Source: Chloroflexota bacterium
GTDB lineage: Bacteria; Chloroflexota; Anaerolineae; B4-G1; SLSP01
Length of the DNA: 11,005 nucleotides
NCBI GenBank assembly: GCA_022707665.1
Contig: JAKJAE010000068.1
Location: forward strand, 1-11,005
Direction: 5' to 3'
Shown here: piece by piece, positions 1,999-8,541 of the stretch
How positions within the stretch are numbered: the first letter of the stretch is position 1
How the letters are laid out: the number at the start of each line of letters is the position of its first letter
Made by a program: the position numbers and the translations under genes
The notes under the pieces: model-generated
The model's database searches: none
What the model was told of the DNA's origin: nothing
The model's input: only the letters and a program-made list of their open reading frames with translations

Positions 1999-2022
1999 CT
2001 CTGGAGAGTCCTATCGGAGGCC

Positions 2023-3258
2023 CTATTCGGATCTGCTTGGCCCACTTCTTTCAACGTTCAGGAAATCTGGCGAGTCTGTTCCTGCAGCAGCACAGCGGCG
2101 TACGCCGCACACTGTCGCGATGAGAACTGCATAAACACCCACCATCAGCGCGAGTGCGATGTCGAAGCGCTCGATGGGCCATTTGTACATATCTGCGCTG
2201 AGGGCAAGTAACGAGAAGGTCATATACCCAACCAGTAGTCGACGACTCTGGGCAGCAAATGGGGCAAGAGCGAATACAAGGAACAGAAAGTACCCGCAAT
2301 GCAGCTTGGCTGATAGGAGCAGCACAGTAGTGATCAGGAGGACGAGATCGCGCAGGAGTCCCGTCGGACGCCACGCGATGTAACCAAGCACGAGTAGCAC
2401 CCCCGCGACGAACAGCACTGAGTAGACGTCGAGGATGGCACCCTGAGAAGCGTCTCCCCGCCACTTAATCCACAAGGCGCCCAAACCAATGCCACCAAAC
2501 TGAAAGGGATGCTCGGTATGCTCTTGGCCGAAGTCCCAGAACACCGCTGTCTCGCCTGCCTGCAGGTAGAACGGAGCAAAGACAATTCCAAAGACCAGAA
2601 AGGGGATGACGGCATATCGCCAGTTCCGCGTGTTGAAGAGCGCGGCCGGTATCATCATCCCGCCGGTCAGCTTGGTCAAGAGGCCGAAGCCCAGTGCCAC
2701 ACTGGCTGCTGTGTGTTGTTTCCGAGCATAATGCAGCAGAGCTAAGGCGTAGAAGGCAACGACAATCGACTCGTCTTGGCGACGCAGGATGCTGTTACCC
2801 ATCGTCAGTGGGTTTAGGAGGAAGACAAGTGCCCAACGATATCCCAATGTTTTCTGTGGCGCCGAGAAGTATAGCAGGTAGGCAATCATCAGGTTGTAGA
2901 ATGAGAAATAGACCATAAATGCGATCGTTGTGCCCGGATTCCGGTATTCGAAGATCCCGGCAAGAATCGCAGGTGGAATCAGGAGGTAGTTGACCAGAGG
3001 CGGGGTCGCGGTGAAAACGTCGGTGTAGAGCTTACCCCCGCGGAGGATCGTTTCAGCCCGTGCAACCCACGGATCCGCGAAACGGGGCGCATCAGGCGAA
3101 CCGTAGTATCCCAGGGGCGCCAACACCAGCCACGCGAGCGCCAGATAGCCGGCTAGCAGCAGGAGGAACACTCCCAGGATCCACCAGACATACCGATGGG
3201 GTGACGTGGCCTTCCGGCAGCGCTTGAGAATCTGATTGCACACCCTGGTAGACTCCAT
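2023..3258 (-). CDS. Polytopic membrane protein, GT87/GT-C-like glycosyltransferase
   Basis: The 411-residue protein has about ten hydrophobic segments, beginning with WWILGVFLLLLAGYLALAW and ending with a helix near residue 385. The first extracytoplasmic loop contains several Asp residues (SPDAPRFADPW, then LYTDVFTATPPL). The pattern of an early acidic loop, a central RRQDESIVVAFYALALLHYA helix and an LLTKLTGGMM helix resembles DUF2029/GT87-type polyprenyl-phosphate-dependent mannosyltransferases. That likeness is in architecture; I cannot assign donor or acceptor. The frame stays open to 3498, but that extension overlaps the radical SAM gene and is Arg/Ser-rich as in antisense reading, so I chose the ATG at 3258. 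No good Shine-Dalgarno precedes it, so the start is uncertain by a few codons. Base composition is lower than in its neighbours (26/60 to 32/60 G+C in sampled rows), suggesting relaxed constraint or acquisition. It lies about 100 bases after the lipoate cluster on the same strand. Confidence 0.72.
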   Translation of the reverse strand: MESTRVCNQILKRCRKATSPHRYVWWILGVFLLLLAGYLALAWLVLAPLGYYGSPDAPRFADPWVARAETILRGGKLYTDVFTATPPLVNYLLIPPAILAGIFEYRNPGTTIAFMVYFSFYNLMIAYLLYFSAPQKTLGYRWALVFLLNPLTMGNSILRRQDESIVVAFYALALLHYARKQHTAASVALGFGLLTKLTGGMMIPAALFNTRNWRYAVIPFLVFGIVFAPFYLQAGETAVFWDFGQEHTEHPFQFGGIGLGALWIKWRGDASQGAILDVYSVLFVAGVLLVLGYIAWRPTGLLRDLVLLITTVLLLSAKLHCGYFLFLVFALAPFAAQSRRLLVGYMTFSLLALSADMYKWPIERFDIALALMVGVYAVLIATVCGVRRCAAAGTDSPDFLNVERSGPSRSE

Positions 3259-3358
3259 TACAAGACGTCTGCTAGCCCAACCGATACCCGGAGTAGCCCA
3301 GACGGTAGCACAATCAGTGGCACTGCGCAAGGCGCGTTGTCGAACTTTGGCACTAGCG

Positions 3359-4210
3359 TTACAGCGCGCTTTCCAACGCTCTGGGGAGCGCACAGCAGGC
3401 TTCCAGCCGTACAACCGTGTATCCTCGGGCTCGGGCGACTGCAAGGGTCTGGCGCGAGGGAAGCACGATCCGCGTGACGCCCGCATCCAGCACCGCAACT
3501 TCGGTTTCTGTGCGGAGGCCCTGGGCGCGTGGTCGCATACACCCCAATGCGATCTCGGTGGTGGGGAAACTCGCCCTGACTCTCTCGATCACGCTGCCCA
3601 CCATCTCGGCTGAGGGCGGAATGACTTCAGCCATTGGCGTGTCGCGTGTGGGCGAGAAGACGATGATGACGATGGTCTCGGGATGGGGAGCGCGGGCGAG
3701 CGGTTCCAGCAACCGGTCCTCGGTCCCATCGTAGATGGCGATGTGCGGCGCCACGTGCATTCCCACCTTACGCAGCCGGTGATAGGTAGCGACGTAGTCC
3801 TCGGTGGTTGCGTCAAGGCCAAAGACATCCCGGATGGTCGGCGTGCTCGGGATCTCCAGCGATACGAAGTCGATGACAGAGGCCAGGGCCTCAGCCGTGG
3901 CCTCGTCCATCAGGCCGGGGTGGATGTTGAGGATCAGGCCGGTCTCGGCCTTTACCTGCCGGATGGCATCGGTGCGCTCGCGCAGATTGAGGATGGTGCC
4001 GTCACGGGCAGATCCGCCACTCAGCAAAACGCCGACGGCGCCACGATCGCGCAGGTCCTGACAGACACCCACCAGCTCCCCGTCACCCACTGCCGGCACC
4101 ATTGCTCGAAGATATGACCGGTTGCAGTGGCGGCAGTTGAGTTGACAGGCTGTGCCTGACAGCGACACGGGCGGAAACTTGGGCAGAGGGCTGTAGGTTT
4201 TCAGGAGCAC
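3359..4210 (-). CDS. Radical SAM protein, LipS-type lipoyl synthase subunit (COG1856-like)
   Basis: This 283-residue protein has the radical SAM cluster motif CX3CX2C (Cys22, Cys26, Cys29, in CQLNCRHC) at the start of the barrel, and an SAM-binding LLSGGS strand at about residues 62-67. The C-terminal part carries LGCMRPRA (Cys224) and a paired ACCALP (Cys272, Cys273), which may ligate a second iron-sulfur cluster or donate sulfur. It resembles the 'uncharacterised homolog of biotin synthase' group. Together with the ligase pair and the other radical SAM gene, it fits the LipS1/LipS2 system, where two radical SAM enzymes jointly insert sulfur at C6 and C8 of an octanoyl-protein. I cannot say which of the two it is. 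The start is GTG at 4210, preceded by TGAGG 7 bases upstream. It is the last gene of the cluster, 79 bases after lplB. The lipoate role is inferred from family and context. Confidence 0.82.
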   Translation of the reverse strand: MLLKTYSPLPKFPPVSLSGTACQLNCRHCNRSYLRAMVPAVGDGELVGVCQDLRDRGAVGVLLSGGSARDGTILNLRERTDAIRQVKAETGLILNIHPGLMDEATAEALASVIDFVSLEIPSTPTIRDVFGLDATTEDYVATYHRLRKVGMHVAPHIAIYDGTEDRLLEPLARAPHPETIVIIVFSPTRDTPMAEVIPPSAEMVGSVIERVRASFPTTEIALGCMRPRAQGLRTETEVAVLDAGVTRIVLPSRQTLAVARARGYTVVRLEACCALPRALESAL

Positions 4211-4289
4211 GTTATGCCTCAGGGAACCTTGGCTGGGGACTGTGATCGGGAGGGACTGCCGGGGGCCCGTTTCAGCGTTCTTGCTCTGC

Positions 4290-4604
4290 TCACAGGGTAT
4301 CCGCTTCTTCAGCGCTAAGGAGCAGGTGGACGATGTCTTCGACAGATGCCCCGATCATCTCTACACCGGTTTCCAGGAAGGCCTGTAGCCGCTCTTGCAG
4401 GGTTCTAGCCTCCAGCGGTGCGCCAACCAGGCGTTCCTCCAGATCGAGGATGGCTTCCTCGGGGTGCATGAAGAAGTCGCCGGTCAGACGAAGGGAGGTG
4501 ATGAGCGGAGGCGTGACGTGTTCGGTTACGGTGAGGCGCACCCGGAGCAGCTTCCCGCCCGGGGCCTTGTAGTCAGCGCATCGCAATCCACTCGTTGGTC
4601 GCAT
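4290..4604 (-). CDS. lplB: Lipoate-protein ligase accessory (C-terminal) domain, stand-alone LplB
   Basis: The 104-residue protein matches the C-terminal domain of bacterial lipoate ligases. It has the CADYKAPGGKLLRVRLTV strand pair near residues 9-26 and LRLTGDFFMHPEEAILDLEE at about 38-57, followed by helices in which a ligase-type domain packs (LQAFLETGVEMIG). In E. coli LplA this domain is fused and helps activation of lipoate to lipoyl-AMP; in Thermoplasma and some bacteria it is a separate subunit, LplB, required with LplA. Here the separate form is seen: its ATG lies 32 bases inside the lplA gene, in another frame, so translational coupling is likely. GAAGAG precedes the ATG by about 6 bases. 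The pair would act in the cytosol on lipoyl domains of 2-oxoacid dehydrogenases, GcvH or related carriers. Confidence 0.85.
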   Translation of the reverse strand: MRPTSGLRCADYKAPGGKLLRVRLTVTEHVTPPLITSLRLTGDFFMHPEEAILDLEERLVGAPLEARTLQERLQAFLETGVEMIGASVEDIVHLLLSAEEADTL

Positions 4605-5340
4605 ATTGCTCTTCTTTCAGGGTCTGAGCTAGGGCGATCTCATGGTCGATGAGCTCGCCCGGCACGAGCGTGATATCCAGTGCCTCGGCGAAGCCGTCGA
4701 TCAAGGCCTGTGTGACGCGCTCGCGATCCACTGAGCCCATCTCCCGGCGGATGGAGGTCACACGCTCCTCTACGCCGGCAATCAGCTTATCGCGGATCTT
4801 CTCGTTGGGTACCCTCAGCAGTGTGAACATCAGGTGCGGGTCGACGTCACACAGGAGTGTACCGTGCTGCAGGATCCCGTGGGAGCGTCGCGTTTGAGCA
4901 TTGCCGGAGATCTTGCGCCCGTTGACGGTGATGTCGTTGATGGGTTTGAACTCGGCGGGCATGCCCAGCGCTCGCAGACCGATGACCAACCCACGGCAGA
5001 GCGCGTCGTAGGAGTCGAGGATCTTCCTGGGAAGCCCAGGATAGTCATCCGGAATGGCCAGTGAATAGGTGATCTCGCCCTCGTAGTCGTGGTAGACGGC
5101 GCCGCCACCGGTCAGCCGGCGAATGACGTCCACGCCGTGGGTAGTGCATGCTTCTCGATCGATCTCCTGCTCGAGTCCCTGGAAGTAGCCAATCGACACT
5201 GCAGAAGGCTGCCAACGGTAGAAGCGCAAGGTCGGCGGCACCATCCTACCGGTCACGCAGCGGAGGATCGCCTCGTCTATCGCCATATTGTCATAGGCAT
5301 TACGGGCACCGTGTTGCAGCAGTCGCCACGTCTGTGGCAT
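4573..5340 (-). CDS. lplA: Lipoate-protein ligase A catalytic subunit (BPL/LPL fold), sLpl(AB) type
   Basis: This 255-residue cytosolic enzyme starts with TWRLLQHGARNAYDNMAIDEA, the usual opening of the lipoate ligase/octanoyltransferase fold. It carries RRLTGGGAVYHD (residues 74-85), the lipoate and ATP-binding loop, and INDITVNGRKISGNAQ with the catalytic-type Lys143, then ILQHGTLL. It lacks the fused C-terminal domain of E. coli LplA, which is supplied by the next gene. LipM octanoyltransferases share this length and C-terminal style, but carry RRPTGGRGVLHD and a Cys nucleophile before the GRK segment. Here that position reads PINDI, as in true ligases, so ATP-dependent ligation is favoured. 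Octanoyl transfer remains possible. The ATG at 5340 is fixed by AAGGAG at 5347-5352. It overlaps the upstream radical SAM gene by 41 bases and lplB by 32 bases. Confidence 0.9.
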   Translation of the reverse strand: MPQTWRLLQHGARNAYDNMAIDEAILRCVTGRMVPPTLRFYRWQPSAVSIGYFQGLEQEIDREACTTHGVDVIRRLTGGGAVYHDYEGEITYSLAIPDDYPGLPRKILDSYDALCRGLVIGLRALGMPAEFKPINDITVNGRKISGNAQTRRSHGILQHGTLLCDVDPHLMFTLLRVPNEKIRDKLIAGVEERVTSIRREMGSVDRERVTQALIDGFAEALDITLVPGELIDHEIALAQTLKEEQYATNEWIAMR

Positions 5341-6316
5341 AGCACTCTCCTTCCATGCCGAGATATGACGTTAACTCCAGCCGCGCCTGGATGCGTTCTG
5401 CCTGTGAGAGCGGGGTGGCGTAGTTGTACATCACGCCGCCGGGGCGTTCGTTGTAGAGCGGCCGGTTGCAGTCAGGACAGCCGCTGGTGCGGAACGGGTT
5501 GCCGGTTTCAAGGACGCGCTCGATTGTGTTGGGGTCAATGCGTATCGCTATGAGCTGTCCTGCCTTGAACTCCATATCCTCTAGCCGCGCTTGCCCCCGA
5601 GTGATCAGGTAGCGTGCCAACTGGATGGCCCGGTACCGTTCGACATCTGGCGCAGGCAAGTCGAGCTTTGCACCCCGCACGGGCGTGAAGGCGAAGAGTG
5701 CGACCGTGCAATGCCGGTCGCGCGCATCCTGGATCTTGCGGATGAGGTCCTCGTCGCTGTCGCCCAGACCGACGATCAGATGGACCGATCCGGTGCCAAA
5801 GGTACCGACGATGGCATCCAGGAAGCGGTGATAACCATCCCAGTGGAAACCGGGCTTGACGCGTTGGAACGTCTCCTCGGTGGCGCAGTCAAGGCCGATG
5901 CCAATGCGGTTCACACCGGCGGCCTTCAGTTCTGGCAGCCACCTGGGATTGGTCGGGTTCATGCAGACCGAGATCGGCAGGTCGGATGCTGTGCGAAGTG
6001 CTTGCACTACGGAAATGAGACGGGATTCGAGTCCTGGCTCGAGCACGGTCTGAATGCAGATGCGACGCACGCCCTTGGCGTCCGGCAGGCGCGCCAGTAT
6101 TGCGTCGAGCTCGAACTCGGGCCACACGATGCGTGAGAGAAATCGGGGGTCGGCGTCACTATCGCGGGCCTGGGCACAGAAACGGCATGCGCCCGCACAG
6201 TGTTCTCCAAGCATCGTATAGAGGGTCGTTGGCATGGCGTCCATGCGCGCCCTACGAAGGCCGAGGACCACTGCTGAACCCAGGCTTAGTCTCAGTCTCG
6301 CTCCGTTACGCTCCAT
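5300..6316 (-). CDS. Radical SAM protein, LipS-type lipoyl synthase subunit (COG2516-like)
   Basis: The 338-residue protein resembles the biotin synthase-related radical SAM group. CX3CX2C lies at Cys40, Cys44 and Cys47 (HCAGACRFCAQ). Barrel strands follow, such as RICIQTVLEPG, LPISVCMNPTNP, RIGIGLDCA and SVHLIVGLGDSDED. A second Cys pair occurs late, in SGCPDCNRPLYNERPGG (Cys280, Cys283), probably part of an auxiliary iron-sulfur cluster site, with C-terminal Cys325 and Cys337 also present. Canonical LipA instead carries its auxiliary cluster Cys residues N-terminally, and it is not recognisable here. As first gene of the cluster it is probably one half of the LipS1/LipS2 sulfur-insertion pair; which half is not resolved. 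The ATG at 6316 follows GAAAGGA at a rather long spacing of about 12 bases. MDAMPTTLY at residues 25-33 offers alternative internal starts. Confidence 0.85.
   Translation of the reverse strand: MERNGARLRLSLGSAVVLGLRRARMDAMPTTLYTMLGEHCAGACRFCAQARDSDADPRFLSRIVWPEFELDAILARLPDAKGVRRICIQTVLEPGLESRLISVVQALRTASDLPISVCMNPTNPRWLPELKAAGVNRIGIGLDCATEETFQRVKPGFHWDGYHRFLDAIVGTFGTGSVHLIVGLGDSDEDLIRKIQDARDRHCTVALFAFTPVRGAKLDLPAPDVERYRAIQLARYLITRGQARLEDMEFKAGQLIAIRIDPNTIERVLETGNPFRTSGCPDCNRPLYNERPGGVMYNYATPLSQAERIQARLELTSYLGMEGECYATDVATAATRCP
5347..5352 (-). promoter_or_regulatory. Ribosome binding site of lplA
   Basis: AAGGAG (read on the minus strand) lies 6 bases before the ATG at 5340 and inside the end of the upstream radical SAM gene. 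It fixes the lplA start and shows that the 41-base gene overlap is real. Confidence 0.8.
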
Positions 6317-6355
6317 CTGCTGCTGCGTTCCTTTCGTGTTGCTGTGACGAGTGCC

Positions 6356-6383
6356 AGTCTAGCACGACAGGACCGCGGGACAA
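6356..6383 (-). promoter_or_regulatory. Candidate sigma-70 promoter of the lipoate cluster
   Basis: On the minus strand, TTGTCC (6383-6378) is followed after 16 bases by TAGACT (6361-6356). The -10 is preceded by TGC, giving an extended -10. Each hexamer matches the consensus at 4 of 6 positions. The predicted transcript would start near 6349, leaving about 33 bases before the ATG at 6316. It sits downstream of the hairpin that ends the previous gene, so the cluster is likely transcribed on its own. Confidence 0.5.
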
Positions 6384-6418
6384 GCGCAGATCGCTGCACG
6401 CCGCCATCCGAAAACGCG

Positions 6419-6444
6419 AGATCCCCAGGATTTCCTGGGGATCT
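6419..6444 (-). terminator. Palindromic hairpin after the secreted repeat protein gene
   Basis: An 11-base perfect stem AGATCCCCAGG / CCTGGGGATCT with an ATTT loop (a twelfth A-T pair could close it to TT) lies 36 bases after the stop at 6481. On the minus strand it is followed by CGCGTTTTC, a short and offset T run, so it may be a weak intrinsic terminator. On the plus strand no T run follows directly. It separates this gene from the lipoate promoter. Confidence 0.55.
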
Positions 6445-6480
6445 GGCTTTGTGAACGGCGACGTCGTCAGCTGTAAGGGC

Positions 6481-7173
6481 TCAGGCCTCGTCCGGCGATG
6501 TGGGAGCGAATCTCTGTCTGAACCCACTGTCCTCTAGCGGGTCGCAGCCGGGCATCGCGTCACCGCGCATACCGCCGCTGCGTCCACCACGCATGCCGCC
6601 ACCGCGGATGCCCTCCGCACCACCAAAGCCGCTCATGCGACTGCCTCGTCCGCCAAGCATCAGCGTGTCACCAAGGGCGTCTGCCTGTTCCTGGGTGATG
6701 ACGCCGTCGGCGACAGCCCGCTGGATAGCTTCATCGCGTGCGGCTTGCAGGTTGGCCTGGTAGGTCTCCTGATCGAGTCCCAGCTCGTCCAGCCAGTCGG
6801 CCAGCGACTGCTCACCGAGTTGGTCGACGCTGATGCCAAGCGCCGCGGCTACCAGGGTATCGCGATCCAGGTAGGGCTGCAGGCTCTGGTGCTGTTGGAC
6901 CTGGTCATATTGCTCCTGGGTAATCTGTCCGTCTGCCAGTGCCTGGTCCAGAGCCCGGGTACGGGAAGCCTCGCGCGCGGTCTCGAGTTCCTCAACGGTG
7001 ACGCCGAGTTCATCAGCCAGGAGGGTATCCTGATCGCTGCGATTTCCCCACCACCATCCGCCGCCTCCGTTCGCGCTTACTGCAGTCGCGGTGAGAACAA
7101 GGAGTCCCGCGACCAGCGCCAATGCGCCCAACCCAGCGACGAGCTTTCCTCTGCCGAGTTTGCTCTTTGACAT
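6481..7173 (-). CDS. Secreted protein with two helical repeats and a Gly/Arg/Met-rich tail
   Basis: The 230-residue product begins with a signal peptide: basic SKLGRGK, a hydrophobic core from about residue 11 to 30, and a likely cleavage near AVSA-N (34-35). A GGGGWWWG linker follows. Two related units of about 45-60 residues come next: one starts DTLLADELGVTVEELE (49-64) and ends LADGQITQEQYDQV (79-92); the other starts DTLVAAALGISVDQLG (105-120) and ends VADGVITQEQADAL (154-167). Each has the 'LGV(T/S)VeeL ... A(D)G.ITQEQaD' pattern seen in DUF2680-like and related actinobacterial/Chloroflexota exported proteins. Residues 174-208 are rich in Gly, Arg and Met. No function is known to me. 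The frame runs on to 8271, but that part is antisense to the dehydratase gene; the ATG at 7173 with GGAGG at 7181-7185 is the right start. Confidence 0.82.
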   Translation of the reverse strand: MSKSKLGRGKLVAGLGALALVAGLLVLTATAVSANGGGGWWWGNRSDQDTLLADELGVTVEELETAREASRTRALDQALADGQITQEQYDQVQQHQSLQPYLDRDTLVAAALGISVDQLGEQSLADWLDELGLDQETYQANLQAARDEAIQRAVADGVITQEQADALGDTLMLGGRGSRMSGFGGAEGIRGGGMRGGRSGGMRGDAMPGCDPLEDSGFRQRFAPTSPDEA

Positions 7174-7401: not shown

Positions 7402-8541
7402 GTGAAGATCACCAACATTGAGGTGTACCCTGTCTGGGGCGGATTCCGGAATTTCCTGTTTGTCGTGGTGGATACGGATCAGGGCTATCACGGTGTGGGC
7501 GAGGCCGGCATCACCGGCCGTGAGCTGGCTGTCATCGGCGCGATCGAGCACTTCAAACCGCTGTTGATCGGGGAGAATCCCTTCCGCATTGAGCACATCT
7601 GGCAGAAGCTCTTCCGGGGCGGTTTCTTCCCCGCACAGCGCATCCTGACCGCGGCGATCTCGGCGATCGACATCGCGCTCTGGGACATCAAGGGCAAGGC
7701 GTTGGGCGTGCCGATCTTCGAGCTCTTGGGGGGACTGGCGCGTGACAAGGTCGTATGCTATCCCCACAACCGCGGCCACGCGACCGAGGTTGGCCCTCTT
7801 GTCGATTCGTGCCTTCAGACCAAGGCCGAAGGCTGGAAGTTCGTGCGTTTCGGGTTGCCCGAGGATGGCAAAGTGCTCGAACCACGTCAGGCCGTGCTGA
7901 CGGCGATCAAGCAGCTCCACGCCGTGCGCGATGCGGTGGGCGATGAGATCGAGATCTGCTTCGACGTGCATACGCGGCTGGACCTGCCCGATGCCGTCTG
8001 GCTGTGCCAGGAGGCGGAGGCGGTGCGTCCTTACTTCATGGAAGATCCACTGCGCGCCGAAAACCCCGACTCGTTCAAGACGCTCCGTACACGTACGACG
8101 GTGCCCCTGGCGGCGGGCGAGCAGTTCAGCTCGAAGTGGGAGTTCCGGCAGTTGATCGAGGAGGAGTGGATCGACTACGCGCGGATCGACCTCTGCATCG
8201 CCGGCGGGTTCACCGAGGCGCGGAAGATCGCGGGCTGGGCAGAGACGCACTACATCAAGCTGGCCGTTCACAATCCCCTTGGGCCGGTCTCATCGGCTGC
8301 CTGTCTGCAGCTCAACCTGGCGTCGCCGCTCGTCGGGGTACAGGAGCAACCACGCAAGACCGGCACGGTCCTGACGGACGTCGTGCCTGTTCAACCCAAG
8401 TGGGAAGATGGTTACCTGCTTCCGCCGACGCTGCCGGGCCTGGGCGTGATCTTCGATCGTGAGGCGGCAAAGGCGCATCCTATGCAGATGGCCGAGCTTC
8501 CACATCTGCAGCGGCTGGATGGGTCGGTGACAAACTGGTAA
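7402..8541 (+). CDS. Enolase-superfamily sugar-acid dehydratase (galactonate dehydratase-like)
   Basis: This 379-residue mandelate racemase/muconate lactonising enzyme family protein has the N-terminal capping domain (MKITNIEVYPV, then GVGEAG) and a C-terminal barrel. The three metal ligands are visible as D188 (FDVH), E214 (FMEDP) and E240 (AAGEQ). H190 two residues after the first ligand, and H290 in HNPLGPVSSAA, match the acid-base pair of D-galactonate dehydratase-type enzymes. Dehydration of an aldonic acid to a 2-keto-3-deoxy acid is therefore likely. The end of the second barrel strand (KFVRFGL) lacks the KxK of muconate lactonising enzymes and racemases. The exact sugar acid is unknown. 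The GTG start at 7402 has GAGGAG about 8 bases upstream. No aldolase, kinase or sugar transporter gene is beside it, so it seems monocistronic. Confidence 0.85.
   Translation: MKITNIEVYPVWGGFRNFLFVVVDTDQGYHGVGEAGITGRELAVIGAIEHFKPLLIGENPFRIEHIWQKLFRGGFFPAQRILTAAISAIDIALWDIKGKALGVPIFELLGGLARDKVVCYPHNRGHATEVGPLVDSCLQTKAEGWKFVRFGLPEDGKVLEPRQAVLTAIKQLHAVRDAVGDEIEICFDVHTRLDLPDAVWLCQEAEAVRPYFMEDPLRAENPDSFKTLRTRTTVPLAAGEQFSSKWEFRQLIEEEWIDYARIDLCIAGGFTEARKIAGWAETHYIKLAVHNPLGPVSSAACLQLNLASPLVGVQEQPRKTGTVLTDVVPVQPKWEDGYLLPPTLPGLGVIFDREAAKAHPMQMAELPHLQRLDGSVTNW

Follow-up and report, generated by a model that had tools for sequence, protein, structure and literature searches.

Four consecutive minus-strand genes in the stretch of DNA analysed here, referred to as the window (11,005 nucleotides; contig JAKJAE010000068.1 of assembly GCA_022707665.1, a Chloroflexota bacterium with the GTDB lineage Bacteria; Chloroflexota; Anaerolineae; B4-G1; SLSP01), are predicted to encode a complete archaeal-type LipS cassette for assembly of the lipoyl cofactor, standing in for the canonical lipoyl synthase LipA in the family to which the genome belongs. 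To this reading we assign a probability of roughly 0.9. The genes encode two radical S-adenosylmethionine (SAM) enzymes that flank a split lipoate ligase:

5300..6316, minus strand: lipS2, 338 amino acids (aa); open reading frame (ORF) start 6316, end 5300
4573..5340, minus strand: lplA, catalytic subunit of the split ligase, 255 aa
4290..4604, minus strand: lplB, accessory subunit of the split ligase, 104 aa
3359..4210, minus strand: lipS1, radical SAM enzyme, 283 aa

Distribution of the cassette and of LipA

The survey covered 48 genomes of the order, comprising 24 from the family of the window (f1) and the genomes of two sister families (f2, 11 genomes; f3, 13 genomes). The cassette occurs in 14 of the 24 f1 genomes (G000, G025-G028, G032-G036, G043-G045, G047). 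Twelve of them carry the four genes on one contig in the order lipS2-lplA-lplB-lipS1, with lipS2 cut by the contig end in three (G026, G032, G043); the other two loci are cut by contig ends, lipS1-lplB being seen in G045 and lipS2-lplA in G028. None of the 14 cassette genomes has a LipA above cut-off, and the single f1 genome that does (1/24; G040) is without the cassette. In the sister families, LipA scores above cut-off in 21 of 24 genomes. A different LipS1/LipS2 system is present in 9 of these 24, each time with LipA alongside; in G020, the ligase of this other system was seen and no LipS gene. The occurrence of LipA differs between the cassette genomes and those with the other LipS system (Fisher p 1e-6, kinship ignored), and the chance of having missed LipA in all 14 is 2.4e-14 on stated completeness alone, if misses are independent.

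The genome of the window (window contig, C478) is an assembly of 3.06 Mb in 513 contigs, 73% complete with 2.07% contamination. No LipA was found in this 73% complete genome, whose sole match to the LipA model is RimO (441.5 bits against TIGR01125). The preliminary description, made from the sequence alone, had set a canonical lipA/lipB pair in the genome against the LipS route; canonical lipA was found neither in this genome nor in any of the 14 cassette genomes of the family. Lipoylation targets are present. GcvH is identified by TIGR00527 (166.3 bits, cut-off 115.85) and has, by eye, a GcvP-like neighbour, and an E2 protein (PF00198, 273 bits) has E1-like genes alongside, also by eye; the best NCBIfam match of this E2 is pyruvate dehydrogenase E2, at 399.7 below the cut-off of 552.1.

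It might be argued that the cassette plays an accessory part and has its own carrier, of the LbpA/sHdr type, while housekeeping lipoylation is left to an undetected LipA. Indeed, co-occurrence with LipA is described as common in LipS bacteria in the available part of Tanabe et al. (2023, PMC10332631), and the sister-family LipS systems follow this pattern in 9/9 genomes. However, the finding of no LipA above cut-off in any cassette genome and the miss product given above speak against this. Moreover, GcvH occurs in 22 of 24 f1 genomes as exactly one GcvH-family protein, with none in the other 2, and the GcvH-family protein of the genome studied here is a true GcvH. An accessory role therefore appears improbable.

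The LipS loci of the sister families have features of their own. At L129 (G008:C347, 4154-8964), a fusion of lpl(AB) with DUF116 comes first, then a geranylgeranyl-reductase-family FAD oxidoreductase whose position is LipT-like, then lipS2 and lipS1. A DUF116-like stretch after the ligase was also seen, by tblastn only, in loci of Terraquivivens, Jordarchaeum, Thermoplasmata and Sporomusa, and our literature search returned no paper that treats DUF116 and lipoate together; the domain may possibly be an iron-sulfur or sulfur helper, which is a guess. As a general LipS partner it was rejected, as it accompanies the fused-ligase type in the sister families; within f1 it is found only in G000 and G043, away from the cassette. 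Four further frames (G004:C248, G011:C106, G019:C16 and G020:C185) hold LplA and LipA domains within a single 514-605 aa frame, a kind of fused ligase-lipoyl synthase for which the NCBIfam model LplA_LipA_fuse exists.

Identity of the two radical SAM enzymes

The LipS2 of the window scores 332.2 bits against NCBIfam NF053743 (cut-off 270, E 2.8e-99) and is thus above cut-off, and LipS1 scores 224.8 bits against NF053742 (cut-off 230, E 1.5e-66), its match spanning model positions 1-268 of 268. Comparison with the mutagenesis of the Thermococcus kodakarensis enzymes is more informative at the level of residues. Neti et al. (2022, PMC9585515), in the part available, place the ligands of the auxiliary cluster at C85, C276, C279 and H178 in T. 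kodakarensis LipS2, and at C230, C276, C277 and perhaps H159 in LipS1, the loss of H159 nearly abolishing activity. In the LipS2 alignment, which retained 78 of 81 rows after a length filter and included five Thermococcus-type rows, T. kodakarensis itself not among them, the radical SAM motif CxxxCxxC (C40/C44/C47) and the equivalents of the auxiliary ligands (C87, H179, C280, C283) are identical in 78/78 rows. In the LipS1 alignment (51 of 53 rows after the same filter), C22/C26/C29 of the CxxxCxxC motif, H156 and C224 are identical in 51/51 rows, and C272/C273 are kept in 50/51, the remaining row being a gap; T. kodakarensis LipS1 was not aligned, and the correspondence rests on motif, order and similar spacing. 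All mutagenesis-defined cluster ligands of both enzymes are therefore present in the window, and the proposal of the preliminary description that the radical SAM pair is LipS1 and LipS2 is borne out by family matches and ligands alike. A phmmer search of LipS2 against the Protein Data Bank (PDB) gave no match at E 0.001. Relatives of lipS2 are variously named at source as 'radical SAM protein' or 'biotin synthase', and some of them as 'lipoyl synthase'.

A second alternative assigns the two radical SAM enzymes to some other pathway of sulfur insertion, BioB-like or PylB-like, with the ligase pair being used for lipoate scavenging only. Weak matches of this kind do exist, all far under their cut-offs: LipS2 matches an MSMEG_0568-family model (52.7 bits) and BioB (31.8), and LipS1 matches BioB (20.2) and PylB (19.7). 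In addition, G039, which has neither LipA nor a full cassette, carries lplA-lplB mid-contig without lipS genes, which means that the ligase can stand alone. Nonetheless, the LipS2 score of 332 bits compares with at most 52.7 elsewhere and the LipS1 score of 225 with at most 20.2, the auxiliary ligands of both proteins are all retained, and the four-gene order is conserved among relatives. On the family scores, a BioB or PylB identity was rejected, and the alternative as a whole is slightly less credible still than an accessory role.

The split ligase and a second attachment enzyme

LplA matches PF21948 (LplA-B_cat) with 182 bits (E 1.5e-53), and its motif NDI..NGRKISGNAQ contains the conserved Lys and no Cys. 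The closest solved structures are 2ars and 3r07_A, which we take to be from Thermoplasma and to represent its split LplA/LplB enzyme. LplB lies just above two cut-offs (NCBIfam LplB, 65.7 bits against 65, E 3.3e-18; Lip_prot_lig_C, 24.5 bits against 24) and matches 3r07_C, annotated as 'ligase A subunit 2' (E 3.1e-5). LplA falls below the NCBIfam 'exception' models LplA_large (206.8, cut-off 480) and LplAB (180.7, cut-off 550). A catalytic domain with the Lys and a separate LplB, which together define a split LplAB, are both present. The ligase named in the preliminary description thus stands, whereas its assignment to the sLpl(AB) kind does not, as the genes form a separate archaeal-type pair and not the fused form of sulfur oxidizers.

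Contig C99 of the same genome encodes a second LplA-fold protein, this one Cys-bearing. The cysteine, within a CF motif, is present in 16/16 rows of its group and corresponds to a gap in the ligase rows; octanoyltransferases of the LipM type act through such a cysteine, a point for which our literature search returned no citable paper. 'LipM-like' is our own label, and NCBIfam assigns the protein no LipM name. Since the C99 protein resembles LipM, LplAB need not be the only attachment route. The suggestion of lipoate by the LipS route is upheld by genes, ligands and the failure to find lipA. A third Chloroflexota arrangement, in which a Cys-bearing LipM-like gene comes directly after lipS2 in place of lplA-lplB, was seen at L146, L147, L148, L149, L151, L154, L156 and L167.

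Several observations weigh against the reading as a LipS cassette that stands in for LipA. In f1, LipA and the cassette are both missing from nine of the 24 genomes. Among these nine, G042, of the same genus and 97% complete, encodes GcvH, two E2 proteins and a LipM-like protein, but searches for LipS1, LipS2, the LplA of the cassette and a LipA above cut-off all came back empty; G029, G038 and G041 have GcvH and E2 with no synthase known to these searches. Judging by f1 genomes like G042, detection or biology is incomplete somewhere. As the genome studied here is 73% complete, lipA could be missing from its assembly. The LipS1 of the window lies under its NCBIfam cut-off, as do all 13 LipS1 proteins of the 14 cassette genomes (that of G028 is lost at a contig end). 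This cut-off of 230 is exceeded in just 3 of the 48 genomes and looks tight for this group. Because all 13 cassette proteins and most of the order fall under it, the cluster-ligand residues are the better test, and the window protein is LipS1-like by sequence and ligands rather than by the NF053742 cut-off. Finally, the joint lipoyl synthase activity of LipS1 and LipS2 is a prediction.

Origin of the cassette

The Chloroflexota cassettes form one group with support of 96 in the LipS2 tree (78 of 81 rows) and 99 in the ligase tree for LplA (70 of 73 rows, trimmed to the first 420 residues of each). An archaeal contig, L141, adjoins this group in both trees (support 98 for LipS2 and 90 for the ligase). 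It carries lipS2-lplA-lplB up to the contig end, together with an archaeal-type Kae1 (492.9 bits, cut-off 375). The trees are quick ones with long branches flagged, and no claim is placed on their deep nodes. Tanabe et al. (2023, PMC10332631) had already inferred that Chloroflexota received LplAB from Altiarchaeota. The fragmented assembly (513 contigs, 2.07% contamination) and the identical gene order of L141, as far as that contig reaches, might suggest that the window is an archaeal or other binning contaminant and that the host uses another route, but this is the least credible alternative, given that the cassette occurs in three same-genus genomes and 10 others of the family, that the same-genus locus L136 also has the upstream enolase-superfamily gene, and that the Chloroflexota rows form the supported group described above.

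Gene layout and flanking genes

The preliminary description had reported four consecutive minus-strand genes, the first three overlapping by 41 and 32 bases, and the ORFs lie exactly there: lipS2 and lplA overlap by 41 bases (5300-5340), lplA and lplB by 32 bases (4573-4604), and 79 bases separate lplB from lipS1. By eye, a Shine-Dalgarno-like GGAGAG precedes the lplA ATG (5340) within the 3' end of lipS2, and a GAGG precedes the lipS1 GTG at 4210. Because such a stretch precedes the lplA start, the 41-base overlap is plausibly real. It is restricted to the window; L140 and L143 overlap by 4-7 bases (ORF coordinates), other relatives show a gap there, and the lplA start is uncertain in L139 and L145. 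The lplA/lplB overlap is general, in that an lplB-like stretch starts before the lplA stop in 11/11 relatives holding both genes; an in-frame TTG in lplB offers an alternative start, with which the overlap in the window would be 14 bases. One further element lies upstream of lipS2:

6411..6442, minus strand: terminator-like hairpin, ATCCCCAGG...CCTGGGGAT then TTTT; by eye, weak

This hairpin weakly suggests that the cassette would start its own transcription unit; a pattern scan for terminators makes no call there. Promoter and terminator scans of 2000-6600 gave no excess over shuffled sequence, and an Rfam search gave no match.

Downstream, on the minus strand of the window, 2023-3498 encodes a membrane glycosyltransferase of GT87-like type, with 23.5 bits against a cut-off of 25. 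From its listed TTG start, this frame runs over the last 140 bases of lipS1, which makes a start further downstream probable. On the plus strand, 7402-8541 is an enolase-superfamily (mandelate racemase-like) gene, a homologue of which adjoins the cassette at L136. A conserved fifth neighbour of the cassette was rejected, since flanking genes are common to only two or three loci at once.

Relation to known systems

The LipS route is uncommon, but the pathway, the arrangement and the occurrence in Chloroflexota are already published. According to the available part of Tanabe et al. (2023, PMC10332631), the order lipS2-lplA-lplB-lipS1 is typical of archaea and is present, with 'some rearrangement', in Chloroflexota, Aerophobota and Synergistota, and the lipoate genes of T. 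kodakarensis are said to form no cluster. The window resembles the T. kodakarensis enzymes (PMC9585515) and the archaeal cluster in protein families, in all mutagenesis-defined ligands, in separate LplA and LplB and in gene order; it differs from T. kodakarensis in its bacterial host and clustered genes. With the Chloroflexota LipS1/LipS2 clusters of PMC10332631, as far as that source could be drawn on, it shares phylum, gene set, split ligase and proposed archaeal origin, but those clusters are described as somewhat rearranged, whereas the cassette keeps the archaeal order. LipA is seen in 0/14 cassette genomes, a point on which the consulted part of that source is silent for its Chloroflexota. 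The chemistry would be the same as in the sLpl(AB)-LipS1/S2-LipT system of sulfur oxidizers; in contrast to that system, there is no LipT beside the cassette, no fused sLpl(AB) and no second GcvH-family protein. The fused-ligase type with a DUF116 domain takes the place of the f1 cassette in the sister families. Family-level replacement of LipA and single-target genomes were not found in the literature searched, although the supplementary tables of PMC10332631, of which part was available, may contain them.

Proposed function and targets

By analogy with what has been published for T. kodakarensis and for sulfur oxidizers among the proteobacteria, which guides both the chemistry and the order of steps, LplA and LplB would use ATP to activate free octanoate (alternatively lipoate) and would load the acyl group onto the lipoyl lysine of apo-GcvH; a pyruvate dehydrogenase-type E2 would probably be served in the same way. 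Sulfur insertion would follow, first by LipS2 at C8 of the octanoyl chain and then by LipS1 at C6, each enzyme probably using its own auxiliary [4Fe-4S] cluster as the sulfur source. A further supply of octanoyl groups may come, in the genome studied here, from the Cys-bearing LipM-like protein. The octanoate source and the target of each attachment enzyme are likewise putative.

An E2 is encoded in 8 of the 14 cassette genomes, and 7 of those 8 have the Cys-bearing LipM-like protein. The other six (G032-G036, G047) have no E2 and no LipM-like protein, with GcvH in 5/6; there, no PF21948 enzyme other than LplAB was seen, and of the two target families searched, GcvH and E2, only GcvH was seen. 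The association between LipM-like protein and E2 across the cassette genomes has a p of 0.005, which ignores that all eight E2-bearing genomes fall in two genera, g1 and g2, and the link is confounded by this. It is further blurred by the E2-bearing f1 genomes G029, G038 and G041, which show no LipM-like match, and by short proteins in f2 and f3 that score as LipM-like and occur with or without E2.

Overall, it seems likely from these comparisons that the cassette stands in for LipA in this family. Because the names of lipS2 relatives are mixed, a genome dependent on the LipS route may be mistaken for one that cannot make lipoate. Within the order, f1, with the cassette and without LipA, lends itself to comparison with its sister families, which have LipA and, in 9/24 genomes, another LipS system in addition; one may thus ask whether LipS machinery is limited to cognate carriers or serves ordinary bacterial GcvH and E2. 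A bolder and rather doubtful possibility is that an archaeal cassette has fully displaced LipA for GcvH, and for E2 where present, in one family, with LplAB loading GcvH and the Cys enzyme loading E2. If true, this would contradict the view that LipS systems, once transferred, act on no carriers but their cognate ones, and the LipM-like protein would have been kept or gained where E2 also needs loading.

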